A stretch of DNA of 64,000 bases from Candidatus Paceibacterota bacterium. GTDB lineage: Bacteria; Actinomycetota; Actinomycetes; Nanopelagicales; Nanopelagicaceae. The stretch spans positions 124,001-188,000 of the forward strand of contig DATKUL010000002.1 in the NCBI GenBank assembly GCA_035530615.1. Direction: 5' to 3'. The position numbers and the translations under genes were made by a program. Below the pieces are notes generated by a model. That model saw nothing but the letters and a program-made list of their open reading frames with translations. It did no database searches and was not told the DNA's origin. Shown piece after piece: positions 5,649 to 24,608 of the stretch; position 1 is the stretch's first letter; every line of letters begins with the position of its first letter.

Positions 5649-6665
5649 ATGAGAGCACGTCGTATTAAAGCCGGAGTAACAGCGCTGGCACTCGCCGCAT
5701 CCGTTGGATTAACAACCATCGGTACTGCCACGAGTTCGCAGGCAGCAGGTGGTTGGTGTTCTGGAGTAAAAATCGCCGCATTCCCTGGTGGACCTCAAGG
5801 TGGTGTTTTTGCTAACAACGTCTACAACGGTTTCAAACAAGCCGCGAAAGATCTCGGTCCAAGTGTCAAGTACTACTTCTCTGACTGGGATCCAGGAAAA
5901 ATGATGACGCAATTTAAAGAGGCAGTCGCGACAAAGCCAGACGGAGTTGCCATTTATGGATTTGGCGGACCAGAGGCCAGCAAGCCTATTGTTGACGCGG
6001 CAGAGAAAAAGGGAATCATTGTCACGACTCTTAACACGTCGCTGGTTGATTTGCAAAAAACATACAGCGCAAGAGGTTTTGGATTCGTAGGAGCTGTGAA
6101 CTACAAGGCCGGCAAAGATCTGGCTGCCGAAATGGTGAAACGCGCAAAACTTAAGAGTGGCGATTCAGCCTTTGTTTGGGGTCTAAAGGGACAAGGTGGA
6201 GATCGCGGTCAACGCACAGTTGGTGTGATTGACGGCTTTGAATCTGCCGGCGTAAAGGTTGTTTATCAAGAGATTGACCAAGCAACTAATACCTCACCTG
6301 CATCTGGTGGGCCAACCTTTGCCGGAATCATGGCAAAGAACCCTGATATTAAGGCTGTTGTCACCGACCATGGTGGTCTGACTGCAACTGCCGCTACTTA
6401 CATGAAGGCAGCTAATTTAAAGGCCGGCTCGGTCTATTTTGGTGGCTTTGATGTGTCACCAGCAACCGTGACTGCAGTCCAGAGTGGATATCTGCAACTT
6501 GTAATTGATCAACAACCATGGTTACAAGGGTATTTACCAATTCTTCAAATCTGCTTGACCAAAAAGTATGGTTTTTCGGGTTTGGACATTAATACCGCTG
6601 GTGGATTTGTCGATGCAAGCAACGTCAAAATAGTTGCGCCTCTTGCAAAGAGAGAGATCCGTTAA
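5649..6665 (+). CDS. Sugar ABC transporter substrate-binding protein (CUT2, RbsB-like)
   Basis: The 338-residue precursor has a clear Sec signal (basic MRARRIKAG, then a hydrophobic stretch, cleavage near SSQA-AGGW). The mature part is a type-1 periplasmic binding fold: KIAAFPGGPQGGVFANNVYNGF at the N-terminus, the strand-loop KPDGVAIYGFGGPEAS, and VVTDHGGLTATAATYMKAA in the second lobe. It would capture a monosaccharide or sugar acid outside the membrane. It is the first gene of an operon continuing with the ATPase and permease. A strong AGGAGG precedes the ATG. A large stem-loop directly after the stop probably keeps its transcript more abundant than the downstream genes. The ligand is unknown; the catabolic genes downstream suggest an aldose or aldonate. 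Confidence 0.88.
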   Translation: MRARRIKAGVTALALAASVGLTTIGTATSSQAAGGWCSGVKIAAFPGGPQGGVFANNVYNGFKQAAKDLGPSVKYYFSDWDPGKMMTQFKEAVATKPDGVAIYGFGGPEASKPIVDAAEKKGIIVTTLNTSLVDLQKTYSARGFGFVGAVNYKAGKDLAAEMVKRAKLKSGDSAFVWGLKGQGGDRGQRTVGVIDGFESAGVKVVYQEIDQATNTSPASGGPTFAGIMAKNPDIKAVVTDHGGLTATAATYMKAANLKAGSVYFGGFDVSPATVTAVQSGYLQLVIDQQPWLQGYLPILQICLTKKYGFSGLDINTAGGFVDASNVKIVAPLAKREIR

Positions 6666-6786: not shown

Positions 6787-7557
6787 GTGAGCGTAGTTCC
6801 TGTTATTGAATTAAAGAATGTTTCTAAAACGTTCGGTGAGGTTAGGTCGTTATCAGATGTCAATCTGAGCATTTATCCGGGTGAAATCGTTGGCCTTCTT
6901 GGCGATAATGGCGCTGGCAAATCCACACTTGTAAAAACCATCATGGGGTTTCATGCACCCGATGAAGGGGGCGAGATCTGGTTTAAAGGTGAGAAGATTA
7001 CCGAATGGAATGTTGCCAAAGCTCGCTCCATTGGAATCGAAACTATTTACCAAGAGCGTGCGCTCTGCGAGCAACAACCCATTTGGCGCAATATGTTCAT
7101 GGGGCGTGAGATCACAAACCGTTTTGGCAAACTTGATGTCAAGCAGATGAAGTCTGAAGCTGCGCGTTTAATGGGTGCCCATATGGGCTTTACGTCGACC
7201 GCAGTACACCCTGATAACCCAGTGCTGACGATGTCGGGTGGCGAGAAGCAGGGTGTGGCTATTACTCGAGCATTGTACTTTGATGCCGAATTAGTGATTT
7301 TGGATGAACCTACGGTCGGGTTATCGCTCTCTGAAACTAAGAAAACTTTGGATTTTGTTCAAGAGATAAAGAAATCTGGCCGCTCAGCGATTTTCATTGA
7401 CCACAATATCTTCCATATCTATCCAGCAGTTGATCGCATGATTGTGTTGGATCGTGGGAAAGTTGCCGGTATGTACAACAAGAGTGAAATTACGATGGAT
7501 CAGCTCATCGAGGGCATGTATCGAGTCGCCCGCACGGGCAGTTTGCAGGAGAATTAG
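6787..7557 (+). CDS. Sugar ABC transporter ATP-binding protein (single-domain, CUT2)
   Basis: A 256-residue ABC ATPase with one nucleotide-binding domain: Walker A GDNGAGKST (39-47), signature MSGGEKQG (149-156), and Walker B LVILDEPT (169-176) followed by a switch His (FIDHN). Classical RbsA-type proteins have two fused domains; the single-domain form resembles FrcA/XylG-like ATPases and would act as a homodimer. It starts at GTG 6787 and is followed after 2 nt by the permease gene. It powers import of the ligand captured by the upstream binding protein. Confidence 0.9.
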   Translation: MSVVPVIELKNVSKTFGEVRSLSDVNLSIYPGEIVGLLGDNGAGKSTLVKTIMGFHAPDEGGEIWFKGEKITEWNVAKARSIGIETIYQERALCEQQPIWRNMFMGREITNRFGKLDVKQMKSEAARLMGAHMGFTSTAVHPDNPVLTMSGGEKQGVAITRALYFDAELVILDEPTVGLSLSETKKTLDFVQEIKKSGRSAIFIDHNIFHIYPAVDRMIVLDRGKVAGMYNKSEITMDQLIEGMYRVARTGSLQEN

Positions 7558-7559
7558 AG

Positions 7560-8567
7560 ATGAGCAAAAGTAAAGAAGTTTCCGTGGTCAAGAATAACGC
7601 TGCACGTCCGCCATCATTCTGGCGCCGTTTTGGAATGCAATTTGGAATCTGGGGTGTTGGGGTTGTCATCTGGCTGATCTTTGTTGTAACAGCTTCAGAG
7701 GCATTTACCTCTAGAGATATCTATCTGGCATTCGCTTCCTCTACGCCGATTTTTGCTTTGATGGCGATCCCATTGACATTAGTTGTTATTACAGGCGAAA
7801 TTGATCTCTCATTTCCTTCAACGATGGCACTAGCCACTGCTGGATTTGCAAAAATCTACTCTGGCACTGGGAGTATTTGGATTGGAATTGCAGGTGCACT
7901 TTTCATTGGAGTGCTTTGCGGTTACTTCAATGGATTCCTGATTACATACTTCGCCATACCGTCACTAGTTATTACGATCGGCACAGGATTTCTTTTCCGT
8001 GGCATCGAACTCGCATGGATGAATGGATCAGGCGTTGGATTGACTGATCCTAAATTACAGAAGATTACGACTCTCCTTGTTGGGCGGTCGTTCTTTGGTA
8101 TTGCAAATCAATTCTGGTGGACAATTTTGGCGACTTTGATTTTGTGGTTTATCTTGAATCGCACTAAGTACGGGTCTCACGTATTTCTTACGGGTGATAA
8201 CAAAATTTCTGCTCAGTTAATGGGTGTCAACGTTTCACGAGTTAAGCGCAGCACTTTTGCAGTTATGGGCTTCTTTGCGGCATTGGCTGGGTTGGTGGCA
8301 TCCTTTGAAGTATCTTATTTCTGGCCAACCCTTGGTGACGGTCTCATGCTCAACTCCATTGCATCAGTCTTCTTGGGTGGTACCAGCGTCTTTGGCGGAG
8401 TGGGTACCGTGACGGGAACTTTCGTTGGGTCCTTCATCATTGGCGCAATCAATGCAGGGATTGTCGCATCGGGAATCAATGCGTTCTACACGCAAGTTTT
8501 CTTCGGCTTAGTCATTATTCTTTCTGTAATCATGCAGGCAATCATCAGCCGCCGAGTCAAAAAATAG
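7560..8567 (+). CDS. Sugar ABC transporter permease (CUT2, RbsC-like)
   Basis: A 335-residue integral membrane protein with about 8-10 hydrophobic segments. It carries RbsC-family landmarks: GEIDLSFPSTMALA in the first third, the GYFNGFLITYFAIPSLVITIGT block, and a glycine-rich FLGGTSVFGGVGTVTGTFVGSF near the C-terminus. A soluble N-terminus of about 25 residues precedes the first segment. It forms the channel of the transporter with the preceding ATPase and binding protein; the gap to the ATPase is 2 nt. The downstream gene starts 28 nt later, so transport and catabolism are probably co-transcribed. Confidence 0.9.
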   Translation: MSKSKEVSVVKNNAARPPSFWRRFGMQFGIWGVGVVIWLIFVVTASEAFTSRDIYLAFASSTPIFALMAIPLTLVVITGEIDLSFPSTMALATAGFAKIYSGTGSIWIGIAGALFIGVLCGYFNGFLITYFAIPSLVITIGTGFLFRGIELAWMNGSGVGLTDPKLQKITTLLVGRSFFGIANQFWWTILATLILWFILNRTKYGSHVFLTGDNKISAQLMGVNVSRVKRSTFAVMGFFAALAGLVASFEVSYFWPTLGDGLMLNSIASVFLGGTSVFGGVGTVTGTFVGSFIIGAINAGIVASGINAFYTQVFFGLVIILSVIMQAIISRRVKK

Positions 8568-8595: not shown

Positions 8596-9510
8596 ATGAG
8601 TAGTATGCAGCAAGTTCGTGGCGTCTGCCCTGTTCTCTCCGTTCCATTTACGCTAACTGGTGAAGTGGATTACCAGAGTTTTCGAAATCTCGTGCAATGG
8701 ATTATTTCATGCGGCGCTGAATCGGTATTGATGTTTGGCGTCGCAAGCGAAAACATAAAATTGGATGATCTTGAGCGCGATCGGCTACTTGAAATCTTGG
8801 TAGAAGAAAAACGTAAGGCATCTCTCACGATTGTGGCTTCAGTTGCTGATCATTCTCTCGAACTAGCGGTGGTTCGTGCGCGTAAGTATGAAGCGATGGG
8901 TGCTGATTTCATCAATATTTTGCCACCCTCTTTTTTTGCACCATCGGCCGAGCAAATCCTCGAACACCTGCGAGGAATCCTTTCTGCAGTGAAGATTCCC
9001 GTGATCATCCAACATCTGCCGCAGGCAGGGGGGATGGAGGACGTCGCAGTGCTGGCCCAATTGGCCGGCGAGTATGAAAATTTGGCAATGATTAAATGTG
9101 AAGCCAACCCACCTTCGGCATCCATTGAACGAGTAAAAAGTTTGACTCATGACTCAGTTGGAACGCTCATTGGGTGGGGCGGAATTTTCTGGGCTCAGGG
9201 AGTTCAAGCGGGTGCTCTAGGAGTACAACCGGGGTGCGCACTAACCGATGCGTATATATGGGCCGAAGACGCATTGGATGCGGGCGATTTTACAGAATTT
9301 GAAAGACGCTTGAACACTTTTATTCCTTGGATTGCACGTTGGATTTCCAATCTTGAGCAATTGATTGCGGTTGAGAAAAGTATTCTGCAACGTCGTGGGA
9401 TTATCGCTACTGCCTACTGTAGGCGCCCCACCACAATTTGGGATGCTGAAATTGAGGCAACGCTAGACGAGTCAATAGTTTTCCTTCAAAGCATAGGAGT
9501 GCACTTATGA
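8596..9510 (+). CDS. Dihydrodipicolinate synthase-family aldolase/dehydratase
   Basis: A 304-residue class I aldolase of the DapA/NanA superfamily. The N-terminal RGVCPVLSVPFTLTGEVDY matches the family opening, MFGVASENIKL corresponds to the substrate-carboxylate loop, and the Schiff-base Lys lies in LAMIKCEANPP. Members in sugar operons cleave or dehydrate 2-keto-3-deoxy sugar acids. It overlaps the next gene, a DgoD-like dehydratase, by ATGA, so dehydration to a 2-keto-3-deoxy acid followed by cleavage to pyruvate plus an aldehyde (or further dehydration) is the natural reading. ATG 8605 is an alternative start. It is not lysine-biosynthetic dapA, given the context and divergent loop. Confidence 0.82.
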   Translation: MSSMQQVRGVCPVLSVPFTLTGEVDYQSFRNLVQWIISCGAESVLMFGVASENIKLDDLERDRLLEILVEEKRKASLTIVASVADHSLELAVVRARKYEAMGADFINILPPSFFAPSAEQILEHLRGILSAVKIPVIIQHLPQAGGMEDVAVLAQLAGEYENLAMIKCEANPPSASIERVKSLTHDSVGTLIGWGGIFWAQGVQAGALGVQPGCALTDAYIWAEDALDAGDFTEFERRLNTFIPWIARWISNLEQLIAVEKSILQRRGIIATAYCRRPTTIWDAEIEATLDESIVFLQSIGVHL

Positions 9511-10670
9511 AGATCACGAAAATCACTACAACCGTCATTAATGCCAAGATGCGGAACTGGGTGATCGTTCAAGTCTTCACGGATCAGGCGGGACTTATTG
9601 GAATTGGGGAAGCGACAGTTGAATTTCAAGCCCAAGCAGTCGTGGGTGCTATAGAAGATCTGGGTCAGTTAATTGTCGGACAAGATCCACGGGATATTGA
9701 AAAACTTTGGCAGATAATTTATCGCCACCCTTTCTTCAAAGGCGGCGTAATCACAATGTCCGCCTTGAGTGGAATTGATCAAGCACTCTGGGACATTAGC
9801 GCTAAGGATTTAGGCGTACCACTTTGGAAAATTCTTGGCGGCCTTGCTCGGGATCGAGTGCGAATGTATGACCATCTTGGTGGTGGTAGTTCGGATGCTG
9901 TTTACAACTCCGATACTGCACAATCCTTTGCTGAAAAAATGAAGCAATCAATTGCAGATGGATTTACAGCTGTGAAAATCTTGGCAGTGCCACAATCGGC
10001 GCCACTTGGGGGAAGTGCCGGATTGCGACATGCGGAAGAACTAATGGGATCAGCGCGTGATGCCGCAGGTCCTGATGTGGATATTATGATCGATTTCCAT
10101 GGTCGTACGAGTGCAGCTATGGCGATCCAGTATGCAAAAGTTTTAGAACCATTCCATCCACTCTTTTTGGAAGAGGTGGTCCAACCAGACCAACATGAAG
10201 CCTTGGTGCGTGCCCGGCGCGGCATCAATCTTCCATTGGCAACAGGGGAGCGTTTACTCACGCGCTCTGAATTCTTACCACTCTTGAAAGACGGTCTCAT
10301 TGATGTCGCCCAGCCTGATGTCTGTCACGCTGGCGGCATCACTGAGTTGAGGAAGATCTCTGCGCTCTGTGAAACTTTCGGTGTCGTGATGGCTCCTCAT
10401 AACCCCTTGGGCCCTGTAGCCACGATGGTTAATGTCCATCTTGCGCTCACAACGCCCAATTTCCTTATTCAGGAAGTGATGCGCGCGGATGTTCCCTGGC
10501 GCGAAGAAGTATTTATCGGGGTGCCCGAGTTTGAGGACGGGCATATTCTTCCCCCGCAAGGTCTCGGTATCGGCATAGAGATTAACCAGATTGAGGCAAG
10601 TAAGCACCCATTCGTCTCGGTTATGCCAGTTCAGTGGTTCCATAATGACGGCTCAGTAGCAGATTGGTAA
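9507..10670 (+). CDS. D-galactonate dehydratase-like enolase-superfamily enzyme
   Basis: A 387-residue enolase-superfamily protein that reads closely like E. coli DgoD from memory: MKITKITT opening, IGQDP-like VGQDPRDIEKLWQ, DFHGR, CHAGGITE, APHNPLGP, and a C-terminal SVADW. Metal ligands are Asp196, Glu222 and Glu248 (GER); the catalytic histidines are His198 (DFHGR) and His298 (APHN). These enzymes dehydrate aldonates to 2-keto-3-deoxy acids. It lies between the DapA-family aldolase (ATGA overlap) and an SDR. The same island has a second DgoD-like enzyme (22502) and a third relative (3255), so each probably handles a different epimer. The exact aldonate is not determinable. Confidence 0.87.
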   Translation: MKITKITTTVINAKMRNWVIVQVFTDQAGLIGIGEATVEFQAQAVVGAIEDLGQLIVGQDPRDIEKLWQIIYRHPFFKGGVITMSALSGIDQALWDISAKDLGVPLWKILGGLARDRVRMYDHLGGGSSDAVYNSDTAQSFAEKMKQSIADGFTAVKILAVPQSAPLGGSAGLRHAEELMGSARDAAGPDVDIMIDFHGRTSAAMAIQYAKVLEPFHPLFLEEVVQPDQHEALVRARRGINLPLATGERLLTRSEFLPLLKDGLIDVAQPDVCHAGGITELRKISALCETFGVVMAPHNPLGPVATMVNVHLALTTPNFLIQEVMRADVPWREEVFIGVPEFEDGHILPPQGLGIGIEINQIEASKHPFVSVMPVQWFHNDGSVADW

Positions 10671-10675
10671 AATAA

Positions 10676-11434
10676 ATGAAACTTAAGAACGAACATATTT
10701 TAGTTACAGGTGGCGCAGCTGGAATTGGCGCGGCCATTGTTCTGGATGCGGTACAAGAAGGGGCAAGCGTGTCCTTCTGTGATATCAATGTCCCGGCAGG
10801 CGAGAAGTATGCCGAAGAACTCAGCACGCAAGGTTTCCAAGTTTTCTTCCACCAAGCAGATGTTGGAAATTTCGATAGCCTAAACGTGGCACACGACGCA
10901 ATGGTCGAACATTTCGGTCCAGTTACTGGCGTAGTCAATAACGCTGGTGTCAATGCCTATTACGATCCGGTTCTGATGACCAATGATGAATGGGAACGAT
11001 TCTTCAACGTTGACCTTAAGAGTGTGTGGCACACGGCGAAGTGCGTACTCCCCGGGATGCGTACGGCAAGGCGGGGAGCGATTGTAAATATCGCATCGAT
11101 CCATGCTCGCATGTCTTATCCCAAGTATTTTCCTTACGCAGCGGCCAAATCCGGTGTTATTGGATTGACCAGGAACCTTGCCCTTGACGAAGGGCGCAAC
11201 GGAATTCGCACCAATGCAGTTTCGCCTGGATACACCCTGACCCCGCTGCTGGAGTCTTGGTTCGTCCAGGAACCTGCCAAGCGGACTGAGGCGATGGCGG
11301 TACAGCCCATGGGCAGAATGGCGCAGACCTCGGAAATTGCAAAGGTGGTCACATTCCTTCTCTCCGATGATGCCTCCTTCGTCAACGGTGCTGACTGGAT
11401 TGTTGATGGCGGGCTTCACGCCCGTTTCGCCTGA
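10676..11434 (+). CDS. SDR-family oxidoreductase
   Basis: A 252-residue classical SDR: TGGAAGIG (11-18), acidic SFCDIN after beta-2 suggesting NAD, intact NNAG (88-91), and triad Ser141, Tyr154, Lys158. The C-terminus reads GADWIVDGGLHARFA. It starts 5 nt after the dehydratase stop and ends the CUT2 operon; the next gene has its own promoter. Likely roles are oxidation of the imported sugar to its lactone (feeding the SMP-30 lactonase) or oxidation of a keto-deoxy acid. It is a different paralogue from the SDRs at 1619 and 20627, whose active-site surroundings differ. Confidence 0.85.
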   Translation: MKLKNEHILVTGGAAGIGAAIVLDAVQEGASVSFCDINVPAGEKYAEELSTQGFQVFFHQADVGNFDSLNVAHDAMVEHFGPVTGVVNNAGVNAYYDPVLMTNDEWERFFNVDLKSVWHTAKCVLPGMRTARRGAIVNIASIHARMSYPKYFPYAAAKSGVIGLTRNLALDEGRNGIRTNAVSPGYTLTPLLESWFVQEPAKRTEAMAVQPMGRMAQTSEIAKVVTFLLSDDASFVNGADWIVDGGLHARFA

Positions 11435-11500: not shown

Positions 11501-12706
11501 ATGACACGTGGAGCCCTTGAGAAATTACGAGTAATTGATGCCACCCAGATGCTTGCCGGCCCCATCGCTGGAACGCGATTGGGGGATTTGGGCGCTGATG
11601 TGATCAAGATAGAGCCACCGATTTTGGGTGAGTTTAACCGCACTCGTGGCTTTGAGGATCAGATGAGTAATGGCGAGATGACTACTTTTCTCGCCGTCAA
11701 TCGCAACAAGCGTTCCCTTGCTATTGATCTAAAACATCCTGACGGAAAAGCTGTTATTCATGAATTAATTAAGAACTCTGATGTTTTTTTGCAAAATTTT
11801 CGATACGGGACTGCAGATCGTTTAGGTATTGGCTATGAAGAATTGCACAAAATAAATCCGCAATTGATCTATTGCTCTATTTCAGGGTATGGATCTTTTG
11901 GTCCTTATCGCGATCGTCCCGGTCAAGATCTTGTTGTACAGGGATATAGCGGTTCGATGTTTAGCGTTGGAGCCCTTGGCGACGATCCAACCCCTAGTGC
12001 ACTTTGGGGTGCCGATGTAATGACGGGGTATCAAGCGGTGATTGGAATTCTTGCCGCAATCGAATCACGCCATCTCACTGGCTTGGGCCAACATGTTGAG
12101 GTCGACATGCTGTCGGTAGTTATGGACTGCCAATTACAAGAGTTTGTTACGTATCTCAATACGGAGACGATGCCGCGCCGTATGGAAGAAAGAAGTGGGC
12201 ATGGATCTATTCCTGCTCCGTACGGCGTCTACAAGACTTCAGATGGTTGGATGACCTTAGCAATGGTTCCGCTTCCTATCCTTGGTGAAATTCTTAACGA
12301 TGATTGGTTACGTACTTTGGAGCATTACAACTCGGGCCATGAATATCGCGATGAGGTTTATCGCCTTATCCGTCATAAATTCGAAGGCAAGACCACTAAA
12401 GAATGGATTGAGATCTGCGATAAAGCCGGTGCATGGTGCGGACCCGTCTATAACTATGAAAACTTGGTTAATGATCCGCATATTCAGGAAGCTCAATACA
12501 TTGTCGAACAACCGCAATATCGTGGCACTAGTGCTAGGACGGTGCGTCCTCCATTACGACTTTCTGAGACGCCACCGACGATCCGTCGCGGTGCTCCTGC
12601 TCTTGGCGAGCACTCACGAGAAATTTTGAATGGCATTCTTGGGTTTTCTGACTTACAGATAGATGCATTAGTAGGAACTGGTGCAATCGGACTAGTAAAG
12701 GACTAA
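11501..12706 (+). CDS. CaiB/BaiF-family (family III) CoA-transferase
   Basis: 401 residues with family III features: LRVIDATQMLAGPIAGTRLGDLGADVIKIEPP at the N-terminus, the CoA-binding FLAVNRNKRSLAIDL block, SGYGSFGP, and the catalytic aspartate as Asp172 in ALWGADVMTG. These enzymes move CoA between carboxylic acids by covalent Asp-anhydride and thioester intermediates. It opens an operon with two crotonases, a GH105 hydrolase and a GntR regulator. That implies a carboxylic acid is activated as a CoA thioester and then hydrated or isomerised, which is unusual beside sugar-acid enzymes. The acid is unknown. Confidence 0.88.
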   Translation: MTRGALEKLRVIDATQMLAGPIAGTRLGDLGADVIKIEPPILGEFNRTRGFEDQMSNGEMTTFLAVNRNKRSLAIDLKHPDGKAVIHELIKNSDVFLQNFRYGTADRLGIGYEELHKINPQLIYCSISGYGSFGPYRDRPGQDLVVQGYSGSMFSVGALGDDPTPSALWGADVMTGYQAVIGILAAIESRHLTGLGQHVEVDMLSVVMDCQLQEFVTYLNTETMPRRMEERSGHGSIPAPYGVYKTSDGWMTLAMVPLPILGEILNDDWLRTLEHYNSGHEYRDEVYRLIRHKFEGKTTKEWIEICDKAGAWCGPVYNYENLVNDPHIQEAQYIVEQPQYRGTSARTVRPPLRLSETPPTIRRGAPALGEHSREILNGILGFSDLQIDALVGTGAIGLVKD

Positions 12707-12708
12707 CA

Positions 12709-13503
12709 ATGGCCGCAGCGAATCCCGGAAAAGTCATACTCGAACGCCATGGAAACACGGTACATCTGATTTTGGATCGTCCGGAGAAGATTAACGCGAT
12801 GACCACGGTGATGGACGAGATGATGAATTCTTATATTTATGAAATTAATAATGACCTCGATATTCGTGCCGTTGTATTGTATGGCAAAGGCGAGAAGGGG
12901 TTTTGTGCGGGAAGTGATTTAACTGAATTGGACGAGTATGGAACTAACTGGGAATACCGTAATCGCTTTAGTAGAGGACTCGATTACGCGCGCGCAATAT
13001 GGTTGATCAAGAAGCCCGTTGTTGCCGCAATTCATGGATGGTGCATCGGTGGTGGCCTAGAAATGGCCTGTGCTTCCGATATCCGTATTTCAACTTCTGA
13101 CGCCAAGTTTTTAGCGGGAGAAATTCGTTGGGGTTGGCATGGTGGTTCAGGTCAGACCCAACTCTTAACCCATGCGGTTGGTCCTGGAAATGCATCACTT
13201 TTTCTTCTCCATGGCGAGCCGGTAGATGCATCTACCTCATTGCGTATGGGTTTAATACAAGAAATGGTTTCCCGCGAAGAAGTTCTTCCCCGTGCAATTG
13301 AAATCGCCGAGTCCATCGCGGCAAAGGCTCCAATCGCGGCGCAAATGACAAAACATATGGTTCGTATGGCGCAGAGTATGCCGTTGGAAGTTGGGCTTCT
13401 TTATGAAAATGATTCATTCGCGTACTGCATGACAACGCAGGATGCGCAAGAAGGACAGAGAGCATTTGCTGAAAAACGTCCGCCGAATTTCAAGGGAAGG
13501 TAA
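12709..13503 (+). CDS. Enoyl-CoA hydratase/isomerase (crotonase) family protein, copy 1
   Basis: A 264-residue crotonase: LILDRPEKINAM, the oxyanion-hole block GFCAGSDLTEL, and GWCIGGGLEMA followed by FLAGEIRWGWHGG. The two acidic residues needed for hydratase activity are present and correctly spaced (Glu118 and Glu138, equivalent to Glu144/Glu164 of rat hydratase). It begins 2 nt after the CoA-transferase. It is clearly paralogous to the crotonase at 15309: both share (G)(T/S)NW, WHGG(S/A)G, YENDSFAYC / YENDTFAYC and TTQDAQEG, so the operon encodes either two steps on one substrate or a heteromer. The substrate is unknown. Confidence 0.87.
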   Translation: MAAANPGKVILERHGNTVHLILDRPEKINAMTTVMDEMMNSYIYEINNDLDIRAVVLYGKGEKGFCAGSDLTELDEYGTNWEYRNRFSRGLDYARAIWLIKKPVVAAIHGWCIGGGLEMACASDIRISTSDAKFLAGEIRWGWHGGSGQTQLLTHAVGPGNASLFLLHGEPVDASTSLRMGLIQEMVSREEVLPRAIEIAESIAAKAPIAAQMTKHMVRMAQSMPLEVGLLYENDSFAYCMTTQDAQEGQRAFAEKRPPNFKGR

Positions 13504-13507
13504 AGAT

Positions 13508-14596
13508 ATGTTCTCTGCCCCTGCGCTACCTAGTCGCCAGGAACGATTGGCAATACTTGAAAAAGTTGCAGCATCATTGCCTCGGATGCGTTTTGACACA
13601 TGGAATTTTGGTGATTCCACTGGGTTCGAAGGCATGATCGAATCCGGAAGGGTATTGAAAGACGACACTTATTTTGCCTTTGCTCATGGGTGGATGCGAG
13701 CTTGGGCGACCAGACCAACTCCATACCAACGGATGGATGCCACGGCTCCGGGAATGGCGATGGTTGAGGTTGCACATTTAGCTAATGACACCATTCTTCT
13801 TGGAGAACTCATTGGTTTAGCGCGCTACTTGATGTCGCGGCCCGTTGATCGCGGGATTTTTGATATGTGGGAGAGCATGTGCTTAATTCCGCCCTATGGG
13901 GGTGAGATGCTTCCTCCCAAGGAGGCTGCGCTGCTTGCTCAGCCGCCGCGAGGGTCGTGCGTTGATTGCTTGCATTTTGACCCGCCTTTTTTTACTGCTT
14001 TAGGCAAGGCCTTAGACGATCCAGAATTTACCGAAGTTGGAATCTCGCAAGCACTTGCATATATTGAAGCCTTGCAACAACCTGATGGAATCTTCGATCA
14101 TTTCTTTATGCATGGAGTAGCCGGAACTTTTGGCCCCGGATGGGGGCGGGGGCAGGGTTGGTCCATGCTAGGCCTACTAGATGTTCTTAAGAACATCTCC
14201 GAAGATAATCCCGCTCGAGCACATATTCTTAGCGCGGTACAGAAGCAGATTCACCGCATGATTGAACTGCAACGCCCCGACGGTCGTTGGTGGTGTGTTG
14301 TACATGATCCAACTTCGGGCGAAGAAGGATCAACTGCCGCCTTTATGGCAACGGGGTTTGCGCGCGCCATTAAGATGGGTATTGTGAGTAAAGAAGATGT
14401 ATTACCGCACGCGATCAATGCCCTTGCCGGTGCACTTGATGATACGGACGCGAACGGTCATCTTCGCAATGTTACTGCTGCGGTAATGGCATCTACTCGC
14501 GCATCGCATTACGTACATACTCCGCGTGGTTTCTTGGTCCCATGGGGGCAAGGGCCATTGGCACTAGCAATCTGTGAAATGGACGACTTAATATGA
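13508..14596 (+). CDS. Glycoside hydrolase family 105-like (unsaturated rhamnogalacturonyl hydrolase)
   Basis: About 362 residues from ATG 13508, which has AAGG upstream and lies 4 nt after the previous stop (an upstream in-frame start would overlap the crotonase). It has the alpha/alpha-barrel pattern of GH88/GH105: CVDCLHFDPPFF (Asp153, probable catalytic acid) and the signature WGRGQGW (212-218), normally WGRGNGW. No signal peptide, so it is cytoplasmic, as expected for GH105, which removes unsaturated galacturonate from imported pectin oligomers. It overlaps the regulator gene by ATGA. Its position between two crotonases is unusual and points to a substrate carrying both a sugar-acid and a carboxylate group, or to joint regulation. 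Confidence 0.8.
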   Translation: MFSAPALPSRQERLAILEKVAASLPRMRFDTWNFGDSTGFEGMIESGRVLKDDTYFAFAHGWMRAWATRPTPYQRMDATAPGMAMVEVAHLANDTILLGELIGLARYLMSRPVDRGIFDMWESMCLIPPYGGEMLPPKEAALLAQPPRGSCVDCLHFDPPFFTALGKALDDPEFTEVGISQALAYIEALQQPDGIFDHFFMHGVAGTFGPGWGRGQGWSMLGLLDVLKNISEDNPARAHILSAVQKQIHRMIELQRPDGRWWCVVHDPTSGEEGSTAAFMATGFARAIKMGIVSKEDVLPHAINALAGALDDTDANGHLRNVTAAVMASTRASHYVHTPRGFLVPWGQGPLALAICEMDDLI

Positions 14597-15312
14597 AAAC
14601 CAAGATCGCTAGAAATCTGCCAACCCAGATAGTCTGGGACTTGGGTAGTCGCATTATCTCTGGAGACATTCCACCAGGTTCAATTCTTACATCGGACACA
14701 TTAGAGGAACAGTTCGGCGTGAGTCGCACGGTCGTTCGCGAGGCTCTTAGGGTTCTTCATGACAAAGGGATGACCCGTGCTCGCACAAAGACCGGCACGA
14801 TTGTCCTTGAACGTGAAGAATGGAATTTGCTAGACCCTGATGTAATTTCATGGTTCCGGAGTTCTGGGCTGGCTCCAGAGTTATTGAAAGATCTTGAAGA
14901 GGTTCGTGCTAGTTACGAACCTTGGGTTGCTCGAATTGCTGCTAAACGGCGCGGCAGTAAAGATGTTGCCGTTCTTTCTTCAGCGTTAAAACGCATGACC
15001 GATGCGTACTACGGCAATGGCATGAAATCGGAAGTAATTGGCGAAGCTGACATGGCTTTTCATCAGGGCATGCTTGATGCGACGCAAAATGAGTTAATGA
15101 AACGGATTGGGACACTCTTCATTCCACTTCTGCGAATTCGCGATGAAATGGTTCGAGATGCCATTGATGATGGTTCTTTCATTATTCAGCATCAAGCAGT
15201 GCTTGATGCAATTATCGATGAAGACCCAGATGGTGCCGAACTTGCCATGAAAGCTCTCCTTGAAGCTGCAGCGCAGACCTCGTCGAATGCTCGGCGAAAG
15301 AACAAACAGTGA
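14593..15312 (+). CDS. GntR-family regulator, FadR subfamily (FCD domain)
   Basis: 239 residues. The N-terminal winged helix-turn-helix spans about residues 5-75: ISGDIPPGSILTSDTLEEQFGVSRTVVREALRVLHDKGM. The C-terminal all-alpha FCD ligand domain has the metal/ligand histidine segments AFHQGML and IQHQAVLDAI. FadR-type regulators of sugar acids (UxuR, DgoR, LldR) bind carboxylate effectors and usually repress. It lies inside the operon it probably controls, with ATGA/GTGA overlaps on both sides. A FadR-type site at 19432-19443 and the palindrome at 11480-11489 are candidate targets. Confidence 0.88.
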   Translation: MKTKIARNLPTQIVWDLGSRIISGDIPPGSILTSDTLEEQFGVSRTVVREALRVLHDKGMTRARTKTGTIVLEREEWNLLDPDVISWFRSSGLAPELLKDLEEVRASYEPWVARIAAKRRGSKDVAVLSSALKRMTDAYYGNGMKSEVIGEADMAFHQGMLDATQNELMKRIGTLFIPLLRIRDEMVRDAIDDGSFIIQHQAVLDAIIDEDPDGAELAMKALLEAAAQTSSNARRKNKQ

Positions 15313-16100
15313 CGCTGTCTATTCCAGTGCTCCCGGAAGAACTGGAATTTGATGTTGTTGATTCTGTTGCGACGTTAACACTCAACCGTCCTGAGAAATT
15401 GAACACGATGACACCAGCAATGGGCAAAGCGTTGATGCAACTAGTCTTTTACATTAACAACACCGAGAGTATTCGCGTTGTCATAATCACAGGGGCAGGG
15501 ACAAGAGCATTTTCTGCGGGTAGTGATATCAAAGTCTTAGATGATTACGGTTCAAACTGGCAATTGCGCAATCGTGACGACTATGCGCGAAGTATCTGGC
15601 AGATTAGGAAGCCTGCCATTGCAAAGATCCGTGGGTACTGTATCGGCGGTGGTCTGGAAATGGCGCTCCTGAGTGATATTCGCTATTCAACTCCTGATGC
15701 CAAATTCGGCGCCGGGGAAATTAAGTTGGGATGGCACGGTGGAGCGGGCAACACTCAGCTCCTTCCACGTCATATGAGTACAGGTCGAGCCCTTGAGATG
15801 CTGCTCACGGGGGACATGATTTCTGCGGACGAAGCTGAGAGGTCTGGATTGGTTGACCGAATATTTAACGAAGATGAGCTAGATCAGAAAGTTGGGGAAT
15901 TGGCAGCGCGAATTGCAAGTAATGCCCCGATTGCTTCAGAATTGGCTAAACATTTGGTTAGGATTTCGATGTCGACCGCTGTTGATGTTGGTCTAGCATA
16001 TGAAAACGACACCTTTGCTTATTGCTTCACTACCCAGGATGCTCAAGAGGGTAGAGACGCCTTTATTGGAAAACGTGCCCCGCATTTCGAAGGCAAATAA
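15309..16100 (+). CDS. Enoyl-CoA hydratase/isomerase (crotonase) family protein, copy 2
   Basis: A 263-residue crotonase with LTLNRPEKLNTM, AFSAGSDIKVL, YCIGGGLEMAL and FGAGEIKLGWHGG. The acidic pair is conserved as Glu117 and Glu137. It starts at GTG 15309, overlapping the regulator stop. It is clearly paralogous to the crotonase at 12709; the two genes are separated by the GH105 and GntR genes, so the duplication is not simply tandem. It closes the operon: 82 bp downstream lies the convergent end of the CUT1 permease operon. Substrate and reaction (hydration, isomerisation, or C-C cleavage) are not determinable. Confidence 0.87.
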   Translation: MTLSIPVLPEELEFDVVDSVATLTLNRPEKLNTMTPAMGKALMQLVFYINNTESIRVVIITGAGTRAFSAGSDIKVLDDYGSNWQLRNRDDYARSIWQIRKPAIAKIRGYCIGGGLEMALLSDIRYSTPDAKFGAGEIKLGWHGGAGNTQLLPRHMSTGRALEMLLTGDMISADEAERSGLVDRIFNEDELDQKVGELAARIASNAPIASELAKHLVRISMSTAVDVGLAYENDTFAYCFTTQDAQEGRDAFIGKRAPHFEGK

Positions 16101-16181: not shown

Positions 16182-17033
16182 CTATCCTTTAATTCCACCA
16201 CTTGTTAGCCCATCAACAATGCGTCGTTGGACAATTAGGAAAAAGATAATTGGTGGCAAGGTATAGAGCAAAGATGCTGACATGACTCGATCAAGGGGGG
16301 TTGTAAGTTCGCCAATAAGCGAGGCTAAGCCGGTAGAGGCGACCCTCTTATCCATATCAAGGATGAAAGTTGTGGCAAACAGGTACTCATTCCAGGCGTG
16401 GAAAAAGGCTAGAACCGCCCCAGCAACGATTGACGGGGCAATTAGCGGCCAGATGATTAAGCGCTGGATTTGCAACGTCGAGCATCCATCGACAATAGCT
16501 GCTTCTTCAATTTCATGCGGAATCGAATCAATTGCACCTTTGAGCACCCAAACAATGATTGGCATCACGAACGCTGCGTTAACAAGGATCAATCCCCAAA
16601 GGTTATTGATTAGTCCTAAGGAAATGAATAGTGCATACAGTGGAATCACTAGAAGTGCTTCTGGAAGCATTTGAGTTGCAAACATAATGAAGCCGATAAA
16701 TCCTCGGCCACGAAATTTGCGACGTGAAATTGCATAGGCAGCAAAGAGTGCCATTCCGAGACTAGCAAAAGTTGTTCCGACTGCGATGAATGCGGAGTTC
16801 GTCAACCACTTTGCGATTTCCAATTTTTGAAAAAGATTAGAAAATCCACCTAAATTATCGAAGGAAGGCCACAGACGTGGGGATGATGTGAACATTTCAT
16901 TTGTTGGCAGAAGCGAAGTGTTAAACATCCAATAAATAGGAAAGCCAGCGATTATGGCAATGCCGATAATGCATAACAAGATGATCATTGTTGAGATTCG
17001 AGAAGAACGTGCTTTCTTTCGGTTAGAGGACAT
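16182..17033 (-). CDS. Carbohydrate ABC transporter permease, MalG type (CUT1)
   Basis: 283 residues with six hydrophobic segments and the EAA loop EIEEAAIVDGCSTLQIQRLIIWPLIAP. The C-terminus RRIVDGLTSGGIKG is the typical MalG ending. It overlaps the preceding permease stop by one base (TAATG), so the two are translationally coupled. It forms the channel with the MalF-type partner for the ligand bound by the protein at 18070. No ATPase gene accompanies the operon; a shared MsmX/UgpC-like ATPase elsewhere is likely. Confidence 0.9.
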   Translation of the reverse strand: MSSNRKKARSSRISTMIILLCIIGIAIIAGFPIYWMFNTSLLPTNEMFTSSPRLWPSFDNLGGFSNLFQKLEIAKWLTNSAFIAVGTTFASLGMALFAAYAISRRKFRGRGFIGFIMFATQMLPEALLVIPLYALFISLGLINNLWGLILVNAAFVMPIIVWVLKGAIDSIPHEIEEAAIVDGCSTLQIQRLIIWPLIAPSIVAGAVLAFFHAWNEYLFATTFILDMDKRVASTGLASLIGELTTPLDRVMSASLLYTLPPIIFFLIVQRRIVDGLTSGGIKG

Positions 17034-17944
17034 TAGATATTCCGCTCAAGTCGACGATTGGCAAGAAAATAGACAACGGTGCAAGAAACTGAAAGGACAA
17101 ATCCGATTGTTCCGATTGCTGCTCCATAACCGAGATTGCCGTACTGAAAACTTTCGCGATAGAGGCGAACAACGAGAGTTGAAGTTTTGTCAACGGGCCC
17201 ACCTTGGGTCAGAACCCAAATCACGTCAAAACGGCGTAGTGCCCAGATCGACAAAAGCAGCATCATTACATACATCGTTGGACGAATTAATGGGATCGTC
17301 ACATAACGGAAAAGCTTGAAGGATGTTGCCCCATCCACTTTTGCGGCGTCATAAAGATCTTTTGGAACAGATTGAAGAGCAGCTAGAAGTATCAGACTCG
17401 TCAATGGAAAGGTCATCCAAATCGTGACTGTAACGAGGGTTGGGAGTGCTAAAGATGGATTATCTAGCCAATGTTGTTCTTTTCCGATGATGTTTAATTT
17501 ATGCAGGCCTGAGTTGATAATTCCGTATTGAGGATTGAACATCCAAGTGAAAATAAGAGCTACGGCTATGGGAGGAGATGCCCAAGGTAAAGTCACCATG
17601 GTCCGAACGAAAACCTTGCCACGCATTGATCTGTTCATTAGCAACGCTGCGCCTAAACCAAGTATCAGTGCACCGATAACACTTGCGATTGCATAACGTA
17701 CAGTGACAGATAGGGTGCTGAAGAATCCAGAAGAATGTAGAATTTCGTCGTAATTCTTCAATCCAATGTAAGTATTTAATCCGGGATTCAATGTATTTGT
17801 TTCGGTGAAACTAAGTTGGAAGCCGCGGAAAAGTGGATAACCCAAAAATAGTCCAAGATAAATCAGGGCAGGAGCAAGAAGAATCCAATGGGCATTGCGT
17901 CTATACCAAACGTCCGTGTTTGATAATTTTTCCACTTTCGCCAC
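17033..17944 (-). CDS. Carbohydrate ABC transporter permease, MalF/UgpA type (CUT1)
   Basis: 303 residues. A cytoplasmic N-terminus of about 17 residues is followed by hydrophobic segments (LLAPALIYLGLFLGYPLF first), and the EAA loop reads DLYDAAKVDGATSFKLFRYVTIPLIRP. The GTG start has AAGGAG 8 nt upstream. It sits 125 bp downstream of the binding-protein gene, and that gap contains a strong stem-loop which probably reduces permease relative to binding-protein expression. It partners the MalG-type permease at 16182. Confidence 0.9.
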   Translation of the reverse strand: MAKVEKLSNTDVWYRRNAHWILLAPALIYLGLFLGYPLFRGFQLSFTETNTLNPGLNTYIGLKNYDEILHSSGFFSTLSVTVRYAIASVIGALILGLGAALLMNRSMRGKVFVRTMVTLPWASPPIAVALIFTWMFNPQYGIINSGLHKLNIIGKEQHWLDNPSLALPTLVTVTIWMTFPLTSLILLAALQSVPKDLYDAAKVDGATSFKLFRYVTIPLIRPTMYVMMLLLSIWALRRFDVIWVLTQGGPVDKTSTLVVRLYRESFQYGNLGYGAAIGTIGFVLSVSCTVVYFLANRRLERNI

Positions 17945-18001
17945 TATGGCTTCTCCTTATTTTTCAAAATTGAGAGTACTTTGCCGGATAGATCGGTAAC
18001 A

Positions 18002-18054
18002 ATGTGGTTTGGAGTGGGATTCTGTTGCATGTTAAAACCCACTCCAAACCACAT
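18002..18054 (-). promoter_or_regulatory. 17-bp perfect intercistronic hairpin after the binding-protein gene
   Basis: The arms at 18002-18018 and 18038-18054 (ATGTGGTTTGGAGTGGG and its exact complement) enclose a 19-nt loop. It lies between the binding-protein stop (18070) and the permease start (17944), reading leftward. No U-run follows, which argues for an RNase-blocking or attenuating element rather than a simple terminator. The base of the stem (AUGUGGU/ACCACAU) is the same as in the hairpin at 6693-6736. Confidence 0.8.
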
Positions 18055-18069
18055 CAACTTGATATCTTG

Positions 18070-19471: not shown

Positions 19472-19651
19472 TGGTTCTCAGGTGGTTTTTACCGGCGGCG
19501 GTGCCAGCGCCTGGTCGGCATTAACTCGTGTCAGCCAAGTCGGTATCCCCTCTGTATATAGGGTGGCCCTCGAGATAACGCTCTGAGTCATACACCTTGG
19601 AGTTCACCCGAGTATCCGAAAATGTGTCCGACATTTGCAGGGGAGGTAAGC

Positions 19652-20611
19652 ATGGAAATTCTTCCAGGTATACATCGAATTGAATGCCCCATTGGCACTA
19701 GGTATATTGCCGTTTACGCAATTGTTGGTTCAGCGGCGACCCTCATTGTTGACACTGGATTTGATGGATCGATGCGCGAGGTTGTTGTCCCATATTTTAA
19801 TGCGAATGGTCTTTCTTTAGATGCCGTTCTATATGCCGTGAATACGCATTCAGATTTCGATCACACGGGTGGCAACAGGGCAGTTAAAGAGTTAATGCCT
19901 AATGCTCTGATCTGCTGCGGTGAACGCGATCGACCCATGATCGAAAATCTTCAATCGATGATAGATGATCGCTATGGGGAGTTTGCAGATGATCATAATT
20001 TTGATGAAACTTCTGAGACGAAGGCATTTATAAGAACTGTTGCTTTCCAGACTCGTGTCGATATTGGGTTTTCAGGTAATGAACGCATTGACCTAGGTGA
20101 CCGTGTTATCGAAATTTTGCACACTCCCGGTCACTCATGGGGGCACCTTTCATTCTGGGACGAGAAGACGGGCGTCGTCATTATTGGTGATGCGGTCCTT
20201 GGTGCAAGCGTGCTGCATGCAGATGGTCAACCAGCTTTTCCGCCCACCTATCGTTTTGTTGAGGCATATCGTTCCACGATTCGCTTGCTCAAGGGATACA
20301 AGCCAACAGAAGTACTCACTTCTCACTACCCTCGTTACCAAGGGCAGAGCGCCATTGATTTTCTTGATACCTCTTTGGCGTATACAGATCTAGTGGAACG
20401 CACATGCATGGAAACTTTACAGATGGCCTTTAGGCCATTAACGCTCATGGAATTAATCGACCAATGTCATGAGCGTTTGGGTCCATGGGGGGATCCGGAA
20501 TACAAATACTTGGTTTACCCGGTACTTGGTCATCTTGAGGTACTTGAGTCGTACCAGCGCATTGCTCGCTCGCGAAATGCATCTGGCCTTATGACGTGGT
20601 CGGTAGATTAA
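19652..20611 (+). CDS. MBL-fold metallo-hydrolase
   Basis: About 319 residues starting at ATG 19652, chosen for the GGGGAGG site 8 nt upstream. Metallo-beta-lactamase fold: VDTGFDGSM (first Asp loop), the metal motif NTHSDFDHTGGN in which the second His of HxHxDH is Asp (HxDxDH, a known variant), HTPGHSWGHLSFW, and VIIGDAVLG. A C-terminal helical extension (about 80 residues) carries a winged-helix-like segment, as in glyoxalase-II-like hydrolases of the SdsA/LACTB2 type. It stands alone between the CUT1 operon and the convergent SDR. It probably hydrolyses a lactone or thioester; the latter would connect with the CoA enzymes nearby, but that is inference. Confidence 0.8.
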   Translation: MEILPGIHRIECPIGTRYIAVYAIVGSAATLIVDTGFDGSMREVVVPYFNANGLSLDAVLYAVNTHSDFDHTGGNRAVKELMPNALICCGERDRPMIENLQSMIDDRYGEFADDHNFDETSETKAFIRTVAFQTRVDIGFSGNERIDLGDRVIEILHTPGHSWGHLSFWDEKTGVVIIGDAVLGASVLHADGQPAFPPTYRFVEAYRSTIRLLKGYKPTEVLTSHYPRYQGQSAIDFLDTSLAYTDLVERTCMETLQMAFRPLTLMELIDQCHERLGPWGDPEYKYLVYPVLGHLEVLESYQRIARSRNASGLMTWSVD

Positions 20612-22501: not shown

Positions 22502-23671
22502 ATGAAGATCACTGGATTTGAAATTGTTGTAGTTGGGACGCCGTGGCGAGAGTTAACAATTGTCGAAGTCCAGACGGATGTTGGAATTACTGGTCTTGGA
22601 GAAGTACGCATGGTGAATAAAACCGATACTTTGATTGCGGCGATTGAAGAGTTGGGAAACCGTTACCTCATAGGCGCTGACCCCGCAGATCTTTCCAAGC
22701 TTGCTTGGAATATCAAAGTTGCTGAGTATGGCTTACCAGGTGAAGTTGGACAGAGCGCGTTAGCAGTTTTTGATATTGCGTGTTGGGACATCCTTGGTAA
22801 ATCTTTGGGAGTGCCTGTTTACCAATTGTTGGGTGGTGTATTTACCGCACGGGTCGAAGCATATGCCAACGGTTGGTATCAAGGAGATCGTGATCCCAAA
22901 GTTATTGCGGAGTACGCGGGGAAGGTTGTTGAACGTGGATATCGTGGATTGAAGATCGATCCCTTCGGCCATGCAAGTGCTGAGATAAGTCGCAATGCTC
23001 TGCGTGAATCTGTCGGCATTCTGGAAGCGGTGAGGGGTGCGGTGGGACCGGATATAAATATTTATGTTGAAATGCACGGTCGATTTACATCCTCATCCGC
23101 TCGAGCGGTTGCCAAAGCCATCGAACATATTGAGCCGGCATGGATAGAGGAGCCTGTTTCGCCGATGGATATTGGCGGTTTGCGCAATGTTCGTAATCAT
23201 ACACATCTGCCAATCGCATTAGGTGAACGAATTCATCAAGAGACAGATTTGATTCCATTCTTGGAAGAAGGTCTTGTAGACATCCTGCAAGTTGATACAA
23301 CTCACTGCGGAGGGATTACGGGACTACAGCGTTTAGTGGGGTGGAGTGATGCTTACAATGTTCGTCTGGCACCACATAATGTGGCTGGACCAATCGGTAC
23401 GGCTGCGGCTCTGCATGTTGCCATTGCAGCATCAAACACCAAAGTATTAGAACACTTTAATGATTTCGCTGACCCGTGGATTCATGAAATCGTTGAGGGA
23501 GCCCCATACGTAAATCCAAAAGATGGTTGTTTTGAGTTGCCGACAGCACCTGGATTAGGAGTAACTCTCAATCGGGCGGCGTGTGCCGAGCATCCACGGA
23601 CTGGTGGGCGACTAGCGTTGTATGCTCCAGGCTGGGAGAAACGACAGGATGTCAAGAACTACGGTGGCTGA
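22502..23671 (+). CDS. Galactonate dehydratase-like enolase-superfamily enzyme
   Basis: 389 residues. The barrel has Lys151 (LKIDPFG, a K-x-D variant), Glu190 in place of the usual Asp metal ligand (EMHGR), catalytic His192, Glu216 (IEEP), Glu242 (GER) and His292 (APHN). Capping-domain and barrel landmarks (IGADPADLSKL, LGEV, CGGITG) match aldonate dehydratases. It starts an operon with a sugar-acid kinase and a DgoA-like aldolase, which together would complete aldonate to pyruvate plus glyceraldehyde-3-phosphate. It differs from the dehydratase at 9507 in the Asp-to-Glu ligand, suggesting another aldonate epimer. Confidence 0.87.
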   Translation: MKITGFEIVVVGTPWRELTIVEVQTDVGITGLGEVRMVNKTDTLIAAIEELGNRYLIGADPADLSKLAWNIKVAEYGLPGEVGQSALAVFDIACWDILGKSLGVPVYQLLGGVFTARVEAYANGWYQGDRDPKVIAEYAGKVVERGYRGLKIDPFGHASAEISRNALRESVGILEAVRGAVGPDINIYVEMHGRFTSSSARAVAKAIEHIEPAWIEEPVSPMDIGGLRNVRNHTHLPIALGERIHQETDLIPFLEEGLVDILQVDTTHCGGITGLQRLVGWSDAYNVRLAPHNVAGPIGTAAALHVAIAASNTKVLEHFNDFADPWIHEIVEGAPYVNPKDGCFELPTAPGLGVTLNRAACAEHPRTGGRLALYAPGWEKRQDVKNYGG

Positions 23672-24608
23672 TCTTTTTACCTTTGGTGAAGCACTTGCGT
23701 TGTTTCTAGCTGAAGACACAGACTCAGTTGTTTCTGCACGTAAATTCGACCTCCAAGTGGTTGGGGCTGAGGCTAATGTTGCTGTAGCCGTGAGCCGCTT
23801 GGGTCTTTCCTCTATTTTTCAAACTCGTGTCGGCTTGGACGAATTGGGGGATGTGATTATTGGGGAGTTGCTAAAGGAAAAAATTGATGTTTCTCGGATC
23901 CGACGAGTTGATAACTACACAGGGGCGATCGTGCGCAACCGAGGAACCTCACAACCAGTCAACGTGACCTATTTGCGCACTTCGAGTGCGGCTTCGACGA
24001 TGACGCCACGCGATATCGAGGCATCGGACATAGAGGAATGTCGTTGGTTGCATGTCACGGGAATAACTGCGGCAATTTCGCAGAGCGCCTGCGCTACTGT
24101 TGCCGAAGCACTAAATATTGGGCGCGCTGCAGAGACTATGAAGAGTTTTGACCTCAATATCCGTCGAAAATTATGGAGTGAGACGCGAGCGCGCGAGGTT
24201 TTATATGATCTAGTGCAGAATATAGATGTCGTATTCGGGGGTGCCGATGAGTACCAAGTGGTGTGGGGGTCAGATGATCCCAAAACAAATTTACAAAACG
24301 CCGTTAATCGGGGAATCAAGACAGCAATTATGACCGCGGGACCAGCACTGATCAGGGTGCTAAGCGATGGAGAATATTTCGAAGTATCCCCACCCCTGGT
24401 CACGGCGATCGATCCAGTCGGTTCGGGTGATGCTTTTGTTGGTGGCACGATTGCTGGCCTGCTCGCTGGACTCGAACTGGAGCGGGCTGTTGTGCAGGGA
24501 AGTGAATGCGGCGCTTCAGTTGCTACGCAAATTGGAGATTGGATCGGCCTTCCATATGGCATTGCGGGGCGCAGGATAGACACCAGCGAAAGGGAGCCGA
24601 CTTCATGA
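23649..24608 (+). CDS. PfkB-family carbohydrate kinase, 2-keto-3-deoxy-sugar-acid kinase-like
   Basis: About 319 residues from ATG 23649, overlapping the dehydratase end by 23 bp; a GTG at about 23663 is also possible. Ribokinase-fold hallmarks are GEALALF, the substrate-contacting VGAEANVAVAVSRLG, and the ATP/catalytic segment DPVGSGDAFVGGTIAG with the catalytic Asp. The downstream gene overlaps by ATGA and encodes the matching aldolase. It most likely phosphorylates 2-keto-3-deoxy-gluconate or -galactonate at C6 using ATP. Specificity between the epimers is not decidable. Confidence 0.85.
   Translation: MSRTTVADLFTFGEALALFLAEDTDSVVSARKFDLQVVGAEANVAVAVSRLGLSSIFQTRVGLDELGDVIIGELLKEKIDVSRIRRVDNYTGAIVRNRGTSQPVNVTYLRTSSAASTMTPRDIEASDIEECRWLHVTGITAAISQSACATVAEALNIGRAAETMKSFDLNIRRKLWSETRAREVLYDLVQNIDVVFGGADEYQVVWGSDDPKTNLQNAVNRGIKTAIMTAGPALIRVLSDGEYFEVSPPLVTAIDPVGSGDAFVGGTIAGLLAGLELERAVVQGSECGASVATQIGDWIGLPYGIAGRRIDTSEREPTS

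Follow-up and report, generated by a model that had tools for sequence, protein, structure and literature searches.

A conserved operon combining a CoA-transferase, two crotonases and a GH105-like hydrolase

The window analysed here is a 64,000-nucleotide (nt) stretch (G000:C2:124001-188000) of a 2.16 Mb genome rated 100% complete. At positions 11501-16100 it encodes, all on the + strand, a family III coenzyme A (CoA) transferase (CoAT), a first crotonase, a GH88/GH105-like glycoside hydrolase, an FCD regulator and a second crotonase. We tentatively regard these genes as the heart of a single conserved operon that would catabolise a small acidic sugar or a glycoside by CoA-dependent dehydration together with GH105 activity. 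The host family includes Ca. Planktophila (freshwater acI, Ca. Nanopelagicaceae), the host itself is taken to be a member of this freshwater group, and the operon is also present in Ca. Planktophila versatilis (NZ_CP016774.1). The parts belong to known families and their combination is unusual; no published description of CoAT, crotonase and GH105 together was found in a literature search that had supplements and subscription journals outside its reach.

The five families named in the initial annotation were confirmed by domain matches: CoAT (11501..12706; CoA_transf_3, 347.7 bits, E 1e-103), crotonase 1 (12709..13503; ECH_1, E 7e-51), the GH88/GH105-like hydrolase (13508..14596; Glyco_hydro_88, E 1e-31, 110 bits vs a cut-off of 26.6), the GntR/FCD regulator (14593..15312; supported by a domain match and by relatives) and crotonase 2 (15309..16100; ECH_1, E 1e-54). 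The overlaps it had reported at most junctions were found at only two of the four (+2, +4, -4 and -4 nt). The frame of the GH88 gene opens 66 nt upstream of 13508, and a long overlap with crotonase 1 stems from this upstream ATG; as the extension is interrupted by a stop in three relatives (G076, G079 and G097), 13508 is the likelier start. The five genes form the middle of a longer operon, with an importer, an aldolase, an enolase and a short-chain dehydrogenase (SDR) upstream and, in relatives, a metallo-beta-lactamase-fold (MBL) gene downstream.

Conservation of the gene set

Conservation in relatives had been set beforehand as a check on the proposed module, and the gene set proved to be conserved in the host family and beyond it. 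Thirteen of 151 family genomes possessed a GH88 orthologue (at least 60% identity) and 12 possessed the crotonase (E 1e-40 or better), every one of them among the 13 GH88-bearing genomes (Fisher p = 7e-17, relatedness ignored). CoAT orthologues (at least 843 bits) were present in 11 genomes, plus G129, where a contig end cuts the gene, and orthologues of GH88, CoAT and crotonase occurred together in 12 of the 13. Weaker CoAT relatives were more widespread, with some match at E 1e-60 in 38 of the 151 genomes. Of the 83 genomes of better quality (at least 90% complete and at most 5% contaminated), 10 had any GH88 match and 8 had the crotonase. Four genomes (G022, G051, G074 and G128) with GH88 matches of 26-28% identity in other contexts, and no CoAT or crotonase in the stretches fetched, were excluded from the 13.

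Eleven family stretches (L018-L028), some of them cut by contig ends, shared the order binding protein, ATPase, permease, DHDPS, in some cases PfkB, enolase and SDR, followed by CoAT, crotonase 1, GH88, FCD, crotonase 2 and MBL. CoAT, crotonase 1 and GH88 were adjacent in ten of them, the exception (L024, from G126) having a CoAT relative of 39% identity and no such crotonase. FCD and crotonase 2 followed in nine stretches and MBL was found in ten. In L021 (G034), the block consisted of CoAT, crotonase 1, GH88 and MBL, and the same stretch carried Gfo/Idh/MocA, ThuA, esterase-like and aldehyde dehydrogenase genes. Ten further loci were compared, several of which were the same records under other identifiers; L036 and L038 repeated the whole order. 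Three metagenome records titled Streptomyces griseus or Bifidobacterium breve (L033, L042 and L044) also carried the acI-type operon, and these titles look wrong.

At the level of the class, operon-type GH88 was found in 8 of 394 genomes, one of which (G413) lay outside the host family, and in 3 of 150 genomes of the family of G413. G413 possessed SDR-GH88-MBL-crotonase, with CoAT-FCD facing away, while G559 carried PfkB, an aldose-epimerase-like gene (our reading, with no Pfam match), SDR, GH88, MBL, crotonase, FCD and CoAT. The G573 locus (L041) comprised a DHDPS-type gene, an aldehyde dehydrogenase, Gfo/Idh/MocA, CoAT, GH88, crotonase 2 and MBL. In another class, G747 encoded SGL, enolase, GH2, CoAT, crotonase, MBL, GH88, SDR, FCD, DHDPS and PfkB, and G984 encoded CoAT, crotonase, GH88, FCD, ILVD/EDD and DHDPS; both were found in a search of 396 genomes of the phylum that scored no more than six candidates per genome, and its counts are minimum values. 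In some high-G+C stretches, antisense frames were called as genes; several of these that had no Pfam match were set aside. Overall, CoAT, crotonase and GH88 occurred together in three actinobacterial families of two classes (the host family and two others). Co-occurrence and conserved neighbours thus indicate a real module rather than a chance co-location.

Diagnostic residues of the encoded proteins

According to the initial annotation, both crotonases keep the two glutamates of enoyl-CoA hydratases. This held for crotonase 2, which has Glu at both positions, but not for crotonase 1, where E138 is kept and Leu (L164) occupies the second position in 10 of 10 acI orthologues aligned (window included). 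Crotonase 1 is therefore a member of the crotonase superfamily that lacks the two-glutamate signature of enoyl-CoA hydratases. The solved protein 5z7r, named a short-chain enoyl-CoA hydratase, aligns with Gln at this second position. Among 35 aligned crotonases from the clusters compared, the second Glu was kept in 10, namely the crotonase 2 group and L041. All 35 shared a YxxxWxxRNR motif, with E138, Y77, W81, R84-N85-R86 and Y93 invariant, which suggests that they act on one shared, polar acyl group. The RNR triplet was missing from two other crotonases translated from the same genome and from three solved enzymes aligned. Crotonases 1 and 2 formed separate groups in both trees (the first included two wrong outgroup frames, and bootstrap support was not settled in the repeat). 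L041, which belongs to another family, fell inside the crotonase 2 group, so that the duplication would be older than the acI family or have spread by transfer.

Elsewhere, the genome encodes a 757-residue FadB-like fusion frame with a thiolase gene nearby, as well as thiolases and other crotonases, and later steps may therefore lie outside the operon. Because the motif is invariant and the FadB-like fusion is separate, an ordinary fatty-acid role of the operon crotonases is unlikely. The reading that the initial annotation had set against its own proposal, in which the crotonases serve ordinary enoyl-CoA metabolism and GH88 lies beside them by chance, could draw on how widespread both kinds of gene are and on the beta-oxidation genes elsewhere in the genome; given the nested co-occurrence in 12 of 13 genomes and the same neighbours in three families and two classes, it is highly improbable. 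A CoA-linked sugar-acid route is the better reading.

In CoAT, D172 was invariant in 10 acI orthologues and aligned with an Asp of 9br6, at the position that we take to be the catalytic Asp of family III CoA-transferases. Sequence and residue both place the protein as a predicted family III enzyme; it scored below the NCBIfam cut-off for L-carnitine CoA-transferase (CaiB; 131 bits vs 413).

The GH105-like identity proposed for the hydrolase was upheld, its best Foldseek matches being GH105 entries. The structure model (predicted local distance difference test, pLDDT, 80, with two low-confidence stretches beside D153) adopts the (alpha/alpha)6 fold of GH105. In the alignment with 1nc5 (YteR), D153 (profile position 153) falls on chain position 143, and D143 is the catalytic Asp of YteR. 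D153, H198, W212, R214 and W218 were kept in all eight GH88 proteins compared, which came from three actinobacterial families; given the roles of their YteR counterparts, this conservation makes GH105-type chemistry plausible. Family, fold and aligned Asp thus agree in classifying the protein as a putative GH88/GH105 hydrolase.

A possible route for acidic sugars

The reactions, substrates and order of steps outlined here are what we infer from the gene content. The ABC importer would take up an acidic sugar or glycoside, perhaps a glycuronide, and the family III CoA-transferase would put CoA onto the sugar carboxylate. In a uronide the carboxylate is C6, the alpha carbon C5 and the beta hydroxyl C4-OH, so the CoA thioester would be a 3-hydroxyacyl-CoA, and it is from compounds of this kind that crotonases remove water. 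An operon that encodes CoA-transferase, crotonase and GH105 would therefore be chemically sensible, with the three acting in that order. A crotonase would remove water across the alpha and beta carbons; in a glucuronide, C5 would lose H and C4 would lose OH. The syn stereochemistry of crotonases would fit a glucuronide better than a galacturonide. The transferase may then pass CoA to the next acid, as CaiB and CaiD do in carnitine metabolism. The product would be a 4,5-unsaturated uronide, the substrate class of GH88 and GH105, which the GH105-like protein would hydrate and split. The partner sugar and the deoxy-keto acid would enter 2-keto-3-deoxy-acid catabolism through SDR, the galactonate-type dehydratase, a KDG-type kinase and the DHDPS-type aldolase; the dehydratase would serve a galactose partner, and a glucuronic acid-galactose unit (GlcA-Gal) is a guess. 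In a study of ulvan breakdown, GH88 and GH105 are described as needing an unsaturated uronic acid, and a dehydratase is shown to be able to form it from a saturated uronide (PMC8511951).

It is possible, albeit doubtful, that CoA-dependent uronide dehydration with CoA recycling feeds GH105 in this manner without a polysaccharide lyase, the same pair acting more generally to dehydrate sugar acids in the clusters of Proteobacteria and Streptomyces. The initial proposal that a sugar-linked carboxylate is activated to a CoA thioester thus survives as a CoA-linked sugar-acid route, with no support for hydroxycinnamate as the activated group or for pectin as the sugar source. A reversed use of the same enzymes, in which a 4,5-unsaturated uronate is imported and CoAT and crotonase, working side by side with GH105, hydrate it back to the saturated uronate, would give the crotonase its usual substrate, since unsaturated uronyl-CoA is an enoyl-CoA, and would involve the compounds on which GH105 acts, but it would make the pair compete with GH105 inside one operon, and we consider it very unlikely.

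The CoA-transferase/crotonase pair in Proteobacteria and Streptomyces

Sugar clusters of these groups also contained the CoAT/crotonase pair, in most cases with no GH88. The closest CoAT and crotonase relatives in the plasmid collection, where 44 records matched the Croceibacterium crotonase at E 1e-60, lie together. Thirteen plasmid stretches with the pair were opened, 12 of them annotated (with incomplete gene tables) and one, Azospirillum L068, searched by tblastn. The common order comprised Gfo/Idh/MocA and xylose-isomerase-like genes (five stretches), DUF4432, SDR, CoAT, a solute-binding-like protein and crotonase, and ended with FAH or a ribose-type importer. The solute-binding-like protein between CoAT and crotonase (365-380 residues; L072 8836-9984, L073 6817-7959 and L076 6868-7965) showed no signal peptide by eye. 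Croceibacterium possessed GH78-DUF4432-SDR-CoAT-crotonase-kinase, with GH88 about 5 kb further on. A second set in Martelella (L078 15621-18762) encoded a MaoC-type protein, a solute-binding-like protein, a CoA-transferase and Gfo/Idh/MocA, and no crotonase. MaoC is a hydratase fold unrelated to crotonase, and its presence in the place of the crotonase favours hydratase or dehydratase chemistry. In Rhizobium Q54, a second set lay beside a TRAP importer. GH88 relatives were found in 194 plasmid records (22.6-25.6% identity among the 20 matches listed); the one such neighbourhood opened (Rhizobium L071) contained GH28 and GH88, with no annotated CoA gene. A literature search by presumed S. meliloti locus tags found no function.

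Across the clusters, the neighbours were sugar-acid genes, namely enolase or ILVD/EDD, DHDPS, PfkB and SGL, joined in Proteobacteria by FAH (2-keto-3-deoxy-acid dehydratase type, from one protein searched) and in Azospirillum by an aldehyde dehydrogenase. The FAH protein searched, from Martelella, matched 2-keto-3-deoxyarabinonate dehydratase (2q18, E 4e-17) and 9kkt, an FAH entry with no stated function (E 3e-122). If a cluster lacks GH88, CoAT and crotonase would take water from a free sugar acid to yield the enol and hence a 2-keto-3-deoxy acid, a compound of the type used by FAH and DHDPS enzymes (PMC9795676).

Such clusters also lend themselves to a route that would begin with oxidation of an aldose by SDR and opening of the lactone by a lactonase, after which CoAT and crotonase would convert the aldonate via its CoA thioester into a 2-keto-3-deoxyaldonate, GH105 merely freeing the aldose from a glycoside. 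Azospirillum L068 (SDR-CoAT-solute-binding-like protein-crotonase-FAH-aldehyde dehydrogenase-importer) reads as such an oxidative sugar route with CoAT and crotonase standing in for the aldonate dehydratase. The Variovorax, Pararhizobium, Streptomyces and Pseudosulfitobacter stretches list FAH and no enolase-type or ILVD dehydratase in their incomplete gene tables, and 2-keto-3-deoxy-acid dehydratases occur among FAH as well as DHDPS proteins (PMC9795676). However, an enolase lies beside the pair in the acI operons and in G747, an ILVD/EDD gene in G984 and enolase-family genes near the pair in Martelella and Sinorhizobium, and the conserved GH105 active site would be left without a special role; we therefore hold this aldonate route to be unlikely, if still a serious contender.

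The clusters also bear on a separate fate for an aglycone, in which the GH105-like protein would split a glycoside, the sugar would follow the galactonate route, and a carboxylic-acid aglycone (a hydroxycinnamate, a 3-hydroxy acid or similar) would pass to CoAT and the crotonases. Two separate enzyme sets would suit two moieties, such acids are among the known substrates of family III CoA-transferases, and the G034 block has an esterase-like (AXE1) gene in its vicinity. Nevertheless, the mutarotase-like (DUF4432), SDR, CoAT and crotonase genes are consecutive in other clusters, as if they formed one linear route, and thiolase and hydroxyacyl-CoA dehydrogenase are absent among the product names of the 12 annotated stretches (tables incomplete), which makes this aglycone route quite unlikely.

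Returning to CoA-dependent uronide dehydration, several observations weigh against it. G126, the thirteenth GH88-bearing genome, has GH88 without an operon-type crotonase, 25 of the 35 crotonases are without the second Glu, and genes for beta-oxidation lie elsewhere in the genome. The sole NCBIfam match of the GH88 protein is an Agrobacterium beta-galactosidase model (92 bits vs a cut-off of 420), so it may hydrolyse an ordinary galactoside. The operon also carries a galactonate-type dehydratase, and G984 an ILVD/EDD, so that a second dehydration requires the assumption of two moieties. Finally, KduI was not found in the genome (no PF04962 match, with a control positive in 6 of 14, DhuI not having been tested), and the usual next step for the GH105 product would therefore be missing or replaced.

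By the customary interpretation, GH88 and GH105 enzymes finish a breakdown that polysaccharide lyases begin. If the proposed route is true, CoA-thioester dehydration can make GH105 substrates as well, GH105 genes have to be reinterpreted in genomes that lack lyases, acidic sugars become a concrete diet for freshwater acI bacteria, and sugar acids can be dehydrated without the enolase or IlvD/EDD families.

Other genes of the operon and the window

All further operon genes lie on the + strand. The importer consists of a sugar-binding protein (5649..6665; Peripla_BP_4), an ATPase (6787..7557) and a BPD_transp_2 permease (7560..8567), the latter two assigned by domain match and relatives. The binding protein has the same position and 64-81% identity in relatives; its best NCBIfam match, a rhizopine binding protein, was below cut-off, and its solved relatives, all weak (best E 8e-11), do not name the ligand. 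They are followed by a DHDPS-type aldolase or dehydratase (8596..9510; no NCBIfam model at cut-off), by an enolase-superfamily enzyme predicted to belong to the D-galactonate dehydratase family (9507..10670; PRK14017, 347.8 bits vs a cut-off of 311) and by SDR (10676..11434; domain match and relatives).

The MBL-fold hydrolase (19622..20611), for which lactonase or thioesterase activity are guesses, adjoins crotonase 2 in relatives; in the window, a reverse-strand binding protein and two permeases (16182-19341) separate the two genes. The PfkB kinase (23622..24608) matched the KDG/KDGal kinase model of NCBIfam best, without reaching its cut-off; several relatives have the gene within the operon, whereas in the window it lies farther downstream. 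A peptidase-U32-like protein is encoded near the operon in the window (21333-22262) and near the G034 block (L021 8582-9496), with 44% identity. The window also contains a second galactonate-dehydratase-like enolase, below cut-off (22502-23671), and an ILVD/EDD-like stretch (29812-31425), which suggests that it is rich in sugar-acid catabolism.

Comparison with known systems

The GH105/GH88 unsaturated uronyl hydrolases YteR (1nc5/2gh4), 4ce7 and UGL (2fv0) belong to the same Pfam family as the operon protein, whose fold matched 1nc5, 4ce7 and 2fv0 with Z scores of 32, 31 and 25, respectively. Unlike them, the putative hydrolase sits in a CoA operon, and it is only 14-18% identical to them over the fold. 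The CaiB/CaiD carnitine module likewise pairs a crotonase with a family III CoA-transferase and may recycle CoA, whereas the operon CoAT is below the L-carnitine CoA-transferase cut-off and sugar genes surround it.

Routes of the Weimberg and De Ley-Doudoroff type share FAH/DHDPS 2-keto-3-deoxy-acid enzymes, a sugar-acid dehydratase and a KDG-type kinase with the present clusters; the dehydratases described in the accessible part of the source are of the IlvD/EDD or enolase type, and no CoA step is described there (PMC9795676). In deoxyribonate catabolism of Klebsiella michiganensis, a sugar acid is proposed to be processed as a CoA thioester, as here, but by a CoA-synthetase, a hydroxyacyl-CoA dehydrogenase and a thiolase (PMC6365646), in place of the family III CoA-transferase, crotonase and GH105 of the operon. 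The ulvan oligosaccharide dehydratase P29_PDnc resembles the proposal in that water is taken from a saturated uronide so that GH105 can act; it is reported to need no cofactor (PMC8511951), whereas the operon would employ a CoA thioester and a crotonase.

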